From Verrucomicrobiales bacterium (GTDB taxonomy: Bacteria > Verrucomicrobiota > Verrucomicrobiia > Limisphaerales > UBA1100), in assembly GCA_005809105.1 (NCBI GenBank), contig SYLI01000040.1, positions 1 through 46,253 on the forward strand: a DNA stretch of 46,253 nt. Direction: 5' to 3'. Numbering within the stretch: the stretch's first letter is position 1; every line of letters begins with the position of its first letter. Positions 5,292 to 8,183 of this stretch are shown here, piece by piece. Below the pieces are notes generated by a model. The model saw only the letters and a program-made list of their open reading frames with translations. It had not been told where the DNA came from and made no database searches. The position numbers and the translations under genes are program-made.

Positions 5292-5591
5292 ATGACACGG
5301 CATTGCCACGGTTGTGGGAAGGTTTGGACGGCGGCCATGGCCCCCGGGCGTCGTGACACGTGCGAGAGTTGTGGTCGCGACCTGCGCTGCTGCCTTAATT
5401 GCTCTCACCATGACGCAAGCGTTGCCGAGCAATGCCGTGAGCGGCGTGCGGAATTGGTGCAGGAGAAGGACCGCGCAAACTACTGTGAGTATTTCGATTT
5501 TGCCCGGCGCGAATACCGTGCCCAGACCCGTGGCACCTCTGCCAGAGAAGAGGCCGCCCGCGACACGATGCGCCGGCTGCTGGGAGACTAG
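5292..5591 (+). CDS. Small Cys-rich zinc-ribbon-like conserved protein
   Basis: A 99-residue protein with eight patterned cysteines. CxxC pairs lie at 5/8 and 24/27, Cys33, 34 and 37 follow a GRDLR stretch, and single Cys48 and Cys65 complete the set. The pattern CESCGRDLRCCLNC followed by EQC and DRANYCEYFDF resembles a widespread family of short uncharacterised bacterial proteins; zinc binding is inferred. ATG at 5292 is the natural start, since the frame further upstream lies antisense to the glycosylase gene. An intrinsic terminator follows 17 bases after the stop, supporting a monocistronic gene. The biological role is unknown. Confidence 0.85.
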   Translation: MTRHCHGCGKVWTAAMAPGRRDTCESCGRDLRCCLNCSHHDASVAEQCRERRAELVQEKDRANYCEYFDFARREYRAQTRGTSAREEAARDTMRRLLGD

Positions 5592-5607
5592 CCGCGGGCC
5601 TCACCTG

Positions 5608-5635
5608 CTAATGCGGCGCATTAGGCCCGTTTTTT
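5608..5635 (+). terminator. Intrinsic terminator of the Cys-rich gene
   Basis: CTAATGC (5608-5614), loop GGC and GCATTAG (5618-5624) form a perfect 7-bp stem. After GCCCG comes a run of six T (5630-5635). It lies directly downstream of the stop at 5591. Confidence 0.8.
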
Positions 5636-5648
5636 CCCAAAATATCCC

Positions 5649-5676
5649 TTGACACTTTGGCCATCTCATCAATAGT
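5649..5676 (+). promoter_or_regulatory. Candidate sigma-70-type promoter for a small RNA
   Basis: A perfect -35 hexamer TTGACA (5649-5654) is followed after 16 bases by AATAGT (5671-5676, four of six matches to TATAAT). It lies just after the terminator of the preceding gene. No coding region follows on this strand, only a structured stretch ending in a strong terminator. Confidence 0.55.
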
Positions 5677-5682
5677 GGCGCC

Positions 5683-5839
5683 GGTTACCAAGCCGAAGTA
5701 AAGGACGGTGGGGGAAACAGAATTTCGGTCCCGGTCCAGTACAGCCGGGGCCAATATCCTACAGTAGCCTACGTTGTACTGTTTCTGTGTTCACCGGGCC
5801 AGGCAGGCCGCCTTCAGGCCACCTGGCCCGGAATTTTTT
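5683..5839 (+). ncRNA. Candidate structured small RNA, about 157 nt, family unknown
   Basis: The stretch begins about 7 bases after the -10 hexamer and ends at the T run of an intrinsic terminator. Visible pairings are GAAACAG (5714-5720) with CTGTTTC (5779-5785), an 8-bp hairpin GGTCCCGG/CCGGGGCC (5727-5734 / 5745-5752), and a possible pseudoknot. In the pseudoknot, the hairpin loop segment CAGTACA (5737-5743) pairs with TGTACTG (5775-5781) and competes for three bases of the first stem. The neighbouring gene downstream is convergent, so this is not a leader of a coding gene; a trans-acting RNA is inferred. It does not show the SRP RNA, tmRNA or RNase P core motifs. A divergent 6S-like RNA is not excluded. 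Confidence 0.55.
5794..5839 (+). terminator. Strong intrinsic terminator of the candidate small RNA
   Basis: CCGGGCCAGG (5794-5803) pairs perfectly with CCTGGCCCGG (5822-5831), and AA plus six T follow (5834-5839). The T run exists only on the plus strand, so this terminates plus-strand transcription and not the aldolase gene that ends at 5871 on the other strand. Confidence 0.85.
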
Positions 5840-5870
5840 CCGGGAGGCCCCGCGGCCGTATCGCGGGTGT

Positions 5871-6836
5871 TTAATCAAAGGCATGCCCGGCGCAACAGAG
5901 CACGTTGCGCAGTTTGTGGCGCACGAGTTCCTTGACGGCCTTGCGCGCGGGGCCGAGATATTTGCGCGGATCAAATTCCTTGGGCTGCGTGGAGAGCACT
6001 TCGCGGATCGCCGCCGTCATGGCCAGTCGCAGGTCGGTGTCGATGTTCACCTTGGTGCAGCCGGTGCGACGGGCGATCTCAATGTCGGCCTCGGGCACGC
6101 CGGCGGTGTCCTCGCCCATCGTGCCGCCAAAGCGGTTGATCTGTTGCGCCAGATGCTTGGGAACCGAGCTGGCGCCGTGCAGCACCAGCGGGTAATCGCC
6201 CTGGCCGGCATCCTTCAGCGCCTTCTTGATGGACTTGAGCCTCTCGAGGTCCAGATGCTGCTCGCCCTTGAACTTGTAAGCCCCGTGGCTGTTGCCGATG
6301 GCGACGGCCAGCGAGTCGACGCCGGACTGTTTGACAAACTCCACGGCCTCCTCCGGATGCGTGTAGCAACCCCCTTTGGAATAGGCGCCGCCTTCCTCCC
6401 CGTCGTCGTGCTGCGCGCCCACGAGCATGCCCAGCTCGCCCTCGACGACACAGTCGTGCCGGTGCGCGTAGTCCACCACCTTGCGACAGACCTCCACGTT
6501 TTTCTCAAAGGGATCGTGGCTCGCATCAATCATCACGCTGGTGAATCCCTCATCAATGCACTGCTTGCACAGCTCGAAGCTGTCTCCATGGTCCAGATGC
6601 ACCGCGATGGGGATGCTCGAGAGGCTCACCCCCGCCTCGATGAGCTTTTTAAGATACACCGGGTGCGCGTAATCGCGGGCACCCTTGGAGATCTGGAGCA
6701 TCACCGGAGCCTTCTCCTCCTCGCAGGCCTCGATGATGGCCTGCAGCAGCTCCATGTTGTTGACGTTGAATGCGCCGAGGGCGTACTGGCCCTTCAGCGC
6801 CTTGGCGAAGAGTGCTTTGGTGTGGACGAGCGGCAT
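5871..6836 (-). CDS. fba: Class II fructose-bisphosphate aldolase
   Basis: A 321-residue cytoplasmic glycolytic and gluconeogenic enzyme cleaving fructose 1,6-bisphosphate to the two triose phosphates. Zinc and catalytic residues are in place: VHLDHGDS (His80, Asp82, His83), Glu-rich VEGELG (132-136), NSHGAYK (His184) and LVLHGASSVP (His220). NIDTDLR near residue 280 is the phosphate-binding region. Length and order match the class II family throughout, and the ATG start fits the common N-terminus MPLV. It lies 84 bases after the PHP-domain gene on the same strand and is probably co-transcribed with it. Confidence 0.97.
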   Translation of the reverse strand: MPLVHTKALFAKALKGQYALGAFNVNNMELLQAIIEACEEEKAPVMLQISKGARDYAHPVYLKKLIEAGVSLSSIPIAVHLDHGDSFELCKQCIDEGFTSVMIDASHDPFEKNVEVCRKVVDYAHRHDCVVEGELGMLVGAQHDDGEEGGAYSKGGCYTHPEEAVEFVKQSGVDSLAVAIGNSHGAYKFKGEQHLDLERLKSIKKALKDAGQGDYPLVLHGASSVPKHLAQQINRFGGTMGEDTAGVPEADIEIARRTGCTKVNIDTDLRLAMTAAIREVLSTQPKEFDPRKYLGPARKAVKELVRHKLRNVLCCAGHAFD

Positions 6837-6920: not shown

Positions 6921-8183
6921 TCACGGCCGCGGCACCACCGGCTGCACCCAGGCCGCCTGCTTCTCGCCGGCCGGCATGGGGTTGACCATGGACTTTGAGG
7001 AGACCACCTTGGCGCGCACGTAGATTTCGTCGCCGCGAAATGTGTAGGTTGCTGTGGCGCCCAACACCTTCGCAAGCTCGCAGCCGATGTCGGGGCTGTA
7101 GCGGTGCGTCACTCGCAGAGCCTCCCCCGTGGGCTGGCGGAGGGGTTCGTTGGCTGGATCATACCCGCGCCGCGTGCCGATGAAGTAGGTCGTGTATCGC
7201 ACGCCCGGCTCGGCCTCGATGTCCACGCCCAGTTCCGTCGCGCTGCGTCGCACCTCGCGCAGGCGCACGCCCGTGCTGGCATAAAAGTCGCCCGCCTCAA
7301 GGGCTGCGATGAGCGCGGCGGGCTTGAGTTCGGCTGCGCGCACCATCACCCAACCGCGCCCCGGATTGCTGAGTTTGTTGCTCACCGAGTGGTAGTTGTG
7401 CGCGTCATCCGTGGCCAGCCCGTACAGCACGGTGCCCTTGCGCTCGGCAAGCCGCCGCGTGAGGAGGATGTCCCAGATGCGCTCGGTGCCCGCGTGCAGC
7501 GCGTCGCCCTCGTTGCGCACCAAGGGGTGCCCGTTATACACCTCAAAAAACGGCTCGCCGGTGACCTCAAGAAATTCTTCCGCCGTGATGCCCCACCCGA
7601 AGTTGGGGTGATTGAGATGAGGCAGCATGGGCTGGCCCGTCCTGCGACGCTGCTCCAGGATGGCGTTGATGTTGCGCTGCATCACCTGCACCACATTGCT
7701 GCCACCCTGCGGCTTGAGCGGCTCCTGCACATTGGAGACGTTGATGTGTACGGGGAACGCCTTGTACTGATCGGTCACCTCGATGCCTTGCAGCATCAGG
7801 AATTGCCCCGGAGCCTCCACGCGGCCGCGGAACTCTTGGAACGACTTGAGCCGCACCTCCAGCCGGCCCTCGACGCTGCGCGTTTTCACCCAGTCCTCGC
7901 CCCACGCTTTCCGGTAGCGCGCCAGCGCGGGCATCCCGCCCTTGGACTTGGCCACGTCCACCCATCGCTCGCCGGCCTGAAGGCGGTTGTGATCGGTGAG
8001 CGACAGGAAGTGGTAGCCCTGTTCCTTGTACCACCGTGCGATGACCTCTGGATAATCATCGCCATCACTCCAGAGCGTGTGAGTGTGCAGATTGCCCTTC
8101 CACCACTGCGGGGCCGGCAGGGGCGCCGCAGCGGCCGTCGCGCCTGCCGCCAGCAGGCAGGCCAGCCCCAAGAGCGCGCGCAT
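6921..8183 (-). CDS. Secreted PHP-domain metallohydrolase-like protein
   Basis: A 420-residue protein with a signal peptide (residues 1-20, Ala-rich cleavage region). The PHP metal-binding motifs follow: NLHTHTLWSDG (31-41) and SLTDHN (61-66), a conserved HLNHPNFGWG segment in the middle and ATDDAHNY later. These match the CehA/McbA-type branch of the PHP superfamily, whose members hydrolyse phosphate or other esters on three metal ions. Secretion suggests an extracytoplasmic role; the substrate is unknown. The start is one base after the stop of the metallo-beta-lactamase-fold gene, so the two are surely co-transcribed and perhaps act together. Confidence 0.87.
   Translation of the reverse strand: MRALLGLACLLAAGATAAAAPLPAPQWWKGNLHTHTLWSDGDDYPEVIARWYKEQGYHFLSLTDHNRLQAGERWVDVAKSKGGMPALARYRKAWGEDWVKTRSVEGRLEVRLKSFQEFRGRVEAPGQFLMLQGIEVTDQYKAFPVHINVSNVQEPLKPQGGSNVVQVMQRNINAILEQRRRTGQPMLPHLNHPNFGWGITAEEFLEVTGEPFFEVYNGHPLVRNEGDALHAGTERIWDILLTRRLAERKGTVLYGLATDDAHNYHSVSNKLSNPGRGWVMVRAAELKPAALIAALEAGDFYASTGVRLREVRRSATELGVDIEAEPGVRYTTYFIGTRRGYDPANEPLRQPTGEALRVTHRYSPDIGCELAKVLGATATYTFRGDEIYVRAKVVSSKSMVNPMPAGEKQAAWVQPVVPRP

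Follow-up and report, generated by a model that had tools for sequence, protein, structure and literature searches.

What is encoded between positions 5683 and 5839 of the 46,253-nt stretch of DNA analysed here (the window), in the gap that separates a small protein gene from the next gene downstream? An earlier interpretation made from the letters alone (the sequence-only reading) had proposed that the gap contains no coding frame and specifies a structured, trans-acting small RNA of no known family, with its own promoter and terminator. We addressed the question through the genomic context of the locus, the distribution of its homologues, the covariation of its stems and comparison with catalogued RNA families, and the features identified are collected in Table 1.

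Table 1. Features of the RNA gene locus in window coordinates
Feature	Position	Strand	Basis and remarks
Intrinsic terminator of upstream zinc-ribbon-like gene	5608..5635	+	Terminator scan and sequence; parts that gene from the RNA gene
-35 box TTGACA	5649..5654	+	Read from sequence, promoter scan
-10-like AATAGT	5671..5676	+	16-nt spacer from TTGACA
Possible 5' hairpin CGGTT-ACCA-AGCCG	5682..5695	+	Sequence; stands in place of the order's boxA-bearing 5' domain
Predicted transcript	5683..5839	+	~157 nt; inferred from promoter and terminator
Hairpin P2 (5727-5734 with 5745-5752)	5727..5752	+	Covariation
Pseudoknot 5' strand CAGTACA, within P2 loop	5737..5743	+	Covariation, alignment-free check
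Conserved junction UCCUACAGUAGCCUAC, P2 to pseudoknot 3' strand	5757..5772	+	Per-column conservation, 86 homologues
Competing (rival) stem ACAGTA/TACTGT	5761-5766/5777-5782	+	Sequence, fold
Pseudoknot 3' strand TGTACTG	5775..5781	+	Covariation, alignment-free check
Conserved segment entering terminator stem, UUCUGUGUUCACCGG in window, UUC..GAAAAUUCCCCGG in order	5783..5797	+	Conservation, alignments
Terminator hairpin P3	5794..5831	+	Mid-stem variable and covarying, base invariant, apical loop conserved and pyrimidine-rich
U-tract	5834..5839	+	Sequence

Promoter, Terminator and Genomic Context

The signals expected of an RNA gene were present at the locus. The perfect TTGACA and the fair -10 that had been read from the sequence form the sole sigma-70-like site in 5300-6200, a region in which 0.2 are expected by shuffling, and the terminator said to precede the RNA gene was recovered by a terminator scan, as was the very strong one said to end it, a hairpin with a U-tract. 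An aligned TTGAC box occurs in 14/14 loci of the window's family, the flanks of which are not conserved, and a TTGAC box lies at most 140 nt upstream of 97 of the 106 homologues, compared with 11% of random 140-nt stretches. Across the order that box is usually followed by a 17-nt spacer, and frequently by an extended -10 (TG). These features point to an independent transcription unit. The U-tract was present in 101 of 107 loci tested (the 106 homologues and one match, L176, that was subsequently rejected). A good -10 was not visible in two genera of the window's family, g4 and g5, so the start site is approximate; elsewhere in the order a transcript of ~190 nt is predicted, longer than that of the window (Table 1). 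In agreement with the proposed lack of a coding frame, no ORF is conserved, the longest ATG frame having a median of 3 codons across the homologous transcripts.

The upstream gene (5292-5591, + strand) encodes a 99-aa cysteine-rich zinc-ribbon-like protein without a Pfam match, and the downstream gene (5871-6836, - strand) is the convergent aldolase gene that had been claimed, its product being a class II fructose-bisphosphate aldolase (fba, Pfam PF01116). The window also has, at 6921-8183 (- strand), a gene whose 420-aa product has an LHTHTLWSDG PHP-like motif and no Pfam match at E<=0.001. Throughout the window's family the RNA is found between the zinc-ribbon-like gene, which is on the same strand and ends ~100-160 nt upstream, and a convergent gene, either fba or a PHP-like gene. 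The nearness of that upstream gene would suit a 3' UTR product or a mere terminator structure of the gene, a reading that is extremely improbable with the gene's own terminator and an independent, conserved -35 box intervening, and with the nearest upstream gene pointing away in 75 of 89 cases outside the family (by an ORF heuristic).

Neighbours vary among the other families, and include fba, ileS and an aconitase-family gene. In some of these families a same-strand gene begins ~60-190 nt after the RNA, namely ileS in f57 (with a gap of ~80-90 nt) and the aconitase-family gene in f4/f54, as might be expected if the RNA acted in cis on the next gene, as its leader or attenuator. That is very unlikely overall: the next gene is convergent in the window, in its whole family and in other fba-bearing families, the downstream genes are unrelated between families, and the terminator is always strong. 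The consistent same-strand downstream gene that would mark a riboswitch or cis leader was not found, the neighbour being convergent in the family and a different gene elsewhere. A leader or riboswitch role, which had been called unlikely at the outset, is thus excluded in the window's family, where the next gene is convergent in all members, and is unlikely elsewhere because the neighbours vary. By computational measures the locus has what defines an independent transcription unit, that is, a conserved promoter box, a terminator and variable neighbours. As the neighbours differ among families and no same-strand gene follows in the window's family, we infer from these sequence comparisons that a structured non-coding RNA is encoded in this stretch by a gene that stands alone and is transcribed on its own.

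A separate observation concerns the upstream side of the locus. In many families a glnB-like PII nitrogen regulator gene is divergent from the RNA (e.g., L146 3469-3807, and also the upstream sides of L107, L108, L126, L132, L134-L136 and L144), and it is possible that the RNA gene and the PII gene share a control region.

Distribution of Homologues

Folding energy contributed little to our assessment of the locus. The z-score for 5678-5842 was -2.87, and -0.24 once the terminator was removed, so that folding energy is by itself weak evidence and the thermodynamic z-score was dropped as proof of an RNA gene. It is conservation that makes the RNA gene credible. The search for homologues by BLASTN that the sequence-only reading had suggested matched 13 other genomes of the same family with E values of 1e-61 to 1e-16. 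A first covariance model, built from 13 sequences, identified the RNA in 123 of 320 genomes of the order, and a second, rebuilt from 86 homologues and run on a quality-filtered sample of the class, identified it in 68 of 74 well-assembled genomes of the order among the matches listed, with six lacking it. The genomes compared were mostly metagenome-assembled. Sequence records that match the core exactly carry the label Verrucomicrobiota (e.g., Pedosphaera sp. Baikal-deep-G217), and the order that carries the RNA is probably Limisphaerales/Pedosphaerales.

The second model gave no convincing match outside the order in the class sample, its three weak hits there being in two genomes and via the terminator. 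One of them (L176 in G422, 29.9 bits) has no pseudoknot and resembles a terminator match, and those in G637 (30.6 and 27.7 bits) match through the terminator module alone; all were rejected. G637, which is from another class of the phylum, has two near-identical terminator modules, AACTCCTCACACACCCCGGCCGGCCCCGGYCATCCCCTGRCCGCGGGCCGGCCGGTTTTTT (L186 341-437 and L187 316-424, both on the - strand), one directly after a stop codon, and their apical loop, CATCCCCTG, is identical to the loop of the order's RNA. These modules may represent a terminator that is repeated, or a loop with a shared function. A scan of viral contigs for the terminator-loop motif gave at least 80 stretches and was not informative.

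Within the order the RNA is single-copy as a rule. A tandem pair of copies is present in G255 (L168 1903-2036 and 2228-2360, - strand), and two or three dispersed, diverged copies in each of G067, G066, G226, G231 and G077.

Secondary Structure and Covariation

Covariation, the other check that had been called for, was found in P2, in the terminator hairpin and in the pseudoknot. Four pairs of P2 have two-sided changes among the 13 sequences, and P2 pairs rank among the strongest covarying column pairs in the 86. Taken together within the family, P2 and the terminator hairpin have eight pairs with two-sided changes in 22 cells, a result reached in 0/500 shuffles, and both also covary order-wide. 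The roughly 155 bases of pairings originally described correspond to a structured sequence of ~157 nt with stems supported by covariation.

The pairing of CAGTACA with TGTACTG had been claimed from the window alone, where the strands are complementary, and it also covaries across the order, which makes it the best-supported element of the structure. Its six core pairs are 93.5% standard and all six have two-sided changes; 42 cells were changed on both sides compared with 7.7 after shuffling (0/500 shuffles), as counted on an alignment made without fitting to the pseudoknot. An alignment-free check gave a pseudoknot helix of at least five Watson-Crick pairs in 70 of the 86 homologues versus ~4% when the 3' segment was shuffled. 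The paired strands differ by lineage: GTACA/TGTAC, AGCACA/TGTGCT, ATACAG/CTGTAT, GTTCA/TGAAC, AGTTC/GAACT and AGTAAA/TTTACT.

The further proposal, that this pairing competes with an adjacent stem to give two alternative folds, is weakly supported, as the two are unequal. The minimum-energy fold of the window contains the rival stem, which is present in 9/10 homologues of the window's family versus 1/76 of the others, and we consequently rejected a conserved two-state switch. As judged from the homologous sequences, the pseudoknot is an order-wide feature and the rival stem a lineage-specific one. A divergent homologue in the same family, G002 (L079 / L014), retains the terminator hairpin and the pseudoknot, whereas its U-tract and rival stem are gone.

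Other candidate stems were treated with more caution. Closing stems for a P1 helix (TTTC/GAAA in the order, GAAACAG/CTGTTTC in the window) are plausible and were left unclaimed, being too invariant or overlapping the pseudoknot. The possible 5' hairpin of the window has a counterpart with a two-sided change in a same-genus homologue (CGGTC-ACCA-GACCG), which is weak evidence from two sequences only.

Comparison with Known RNA Families

A locus was counted as a member of an Rfam family if its covariance-model score reached the gathering threshold. Rfam 15 gave nothing over the window but two tRNAs, nothing credible in 5560-5960 at E<=10 and no match on 20 distant homologue loci. The check that the sequence-only reading had proposed against all Rfam models, 6S RNA included, thus returned no known family for the window or the distant homologues. 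The 6S model (RF00013) is unmatched at the locus, and the genome has its 6S gene elsewhere (G000:C9:30508-30679, L026, 53.9 bits), so that this identity was rejected, as were those of tmRNA, SRP RNA and RNase P RNA, all three of which are also encoded elsewhere in the window's genome. In several relatives the 6S genes score just under the gathering threshold, and the Rfam model therefore underdetects 6S in this order.

The order's RNA is comparable to 6S RNA in being standalone, structured, of similar length, broadly conserved and possibly linked to the transcription machinery. It differs in having no covariance-model match to it and in having a pseudoknot rather than a long open-complex-like hairpin. 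A search of the literature found no description of the pseudoknot RNA, the Weinberg 2017 survey being outside its scope. With no Rfam 15 match, strong conservation and covariation, the original suggestion of a family not previously known is borne out, and we regard this as almost certainly a real, previously uncatalogued RNA family.

A boxA-like Motif in the 5' Domain

Outside the window's family, a boxA-like motif, TGNTCTTTGA, was found in 64 of 76 homologues versus 1.2% of background stretches, usually ~14-20 nt before the RNA core and at a constant position within the 5' domain. Its core, TCTTTGA, recurs in every rRNA leader of the order that could be read, 123-146 nt ahead of 16S, and there it is boxA. 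The motif is in a hairpin loop, just before the closing strand, in roughly half of the homologues that bear it, and the stems of those hairpins differ yet are complementary (GGGCA/TGCCC, GAGCAATC/GGTTGCTC, GCTGGC/GCCAGC and CGGAC/GTCCG), although a swap control of the hairpins was not discriminating as many sequences share GGGCA/TGCCC. In the f57 homologues a hairpin precedes boxA. None of 10 sampled homologues of the window's family, the window included, has the motif, and this family has lost the boxA-bearing 5' domain and most of its C-richness, and has kept the RNA core.

In rRNA transcription, boxA is the site of NusB-S10 (PMC5725501). The order's RNA is similar to the transcripts that bear boxA, such as the rRNA leaders and the suhB 5' UTR, in that a strong promoter shortly precedes the motif, which in some cases follows a hairpin or sits inside one; in contrast to them, the order's RNA is a short terminated RNA and not an operon leader. 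Potentially, then, the RNA is a decoy or sensor that titrates or reports free NusB-S10, thereby adjusting rRNA antitermination in a manner loosely like that of 6S RNA on RNA polymerase. The fixed position of the motif, the complementarity that is kept as the hairpin stems change and the same motif in the rRNA leaders all speak for such a role. However, boxA may act in cis only, on the RNA's own transcription, and the RNA persists in the window's family without it, which makes the decoy or sensor role less likely for the RNA family as a whole, and we judge it unlikely. The broader proposition, that the near-universal RNA with its portable boxA and pseudoknot core engages NusB-S10 in trans and thereby controls rRNA synthesis or the assembly of ribosomes, is in our view distinctly unlikely.

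Proposed Function

By exclusion, the RNA is probably a trans-acting regulator, although a local role is possible in those families with a same-strand gene close downstream. The most conserved unpaired residues in the 86 homologues are pyrimidine-rich. They comprise the CCUAC junction, UUCCCC ahead of the terminator stem and the apical loop CAYCCYCUG; four junction residues (C5759, C5768, C5769 and C5772) are nearly invariant. The apical loop of the terminator, CAYCCYCUG in the order consensus and C-rich outside the window's family, is less so within it (CCUUC). Accessible C-rich boxes are a signature of sRNAs that act at translation initiation (PMC3861533), and it is because the conserved unpaired segments resemble the C-rich seeds of such sRNAs that we favour a trans-acting, probably multi-target sRNA. 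By this analogy the RNA could well act by pairing with mRNAs. Known C-rich-seed sRNAs, the Rsa family and RNAIII of Staphylococcus and LhrC of Listeria, likewise have accessible C-rich loops in conserved hairpins (PMC3861533), and their own promoter and terminator. They belong to another phylum and have no sequence or covariance-model relation to the order's RNA, which, unlike them, has a covarying pseudoknot core and a boxA in its 5' domain.

These conserved unpaired residues might just as well serve to bind a protein or ligand, the RNA then being a ribonucleoprotein component or a riboswitch-like aptamer released as a short transcript, with the junction and pseudoknot as its pocket. Invariant junction residues that flank a covarying pseudoknot do resemble binding cores in general architecture. 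Nevertheless, the downstream gene is inconsistent, an alternative terminator/antiterminator is not conserved across the order and nothing points to a partner, and we hold this explanation to be somewhat unlikely.

Our overall reading, a tentative one, is a standalone RNA of a new family that acts in trans as an sRNA at ribosome binding sites on a pseudoknot scaffold. The exposed C/U-rich segments would pair with Shine-Dalgarno regions in the manner of C-rich sRNA seeds, the pseudoknot would act as a stabilising scaffold, and several mRNAs would be repressed or modulated at their ribosome binding sites. In most of the order, the boxA-like site in the 5' domain may let NusB-S10 join the nascent RNA, a recruitment that would couple the synthesis or folding of the RNA to the rRNA transcription machinery. 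Neither boxA nor a C-rich terminator loop can be essential to the core function, since the window's family has no boxA and a less C-rich loop.

Significance

Verrucomicrobiota include a major environmental order in which nearly every genome examined has kept this structured RNA, yet the family is missing from Rfam 15, and a 2022 review listed only eight sRNAs for the whole PVC group (PMC9029176). The near-universality of the RNA in the order points to an important role. A directly testable question follows from the boxA-like motif, namely whether Nus factors act on small RNAs or through them, one that was omitted by a published bioinformatic survey of boxA sites, in which non-coding RNAs were left unconsidered (PMC5725501). 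With boxA in most of the relatives, the RNA may link regulatory RNA to ribosome production, and if it does engage NusB-S10 in trans, it would rank with 6S RNA, as an RNA that regulates the antitermination machinery.
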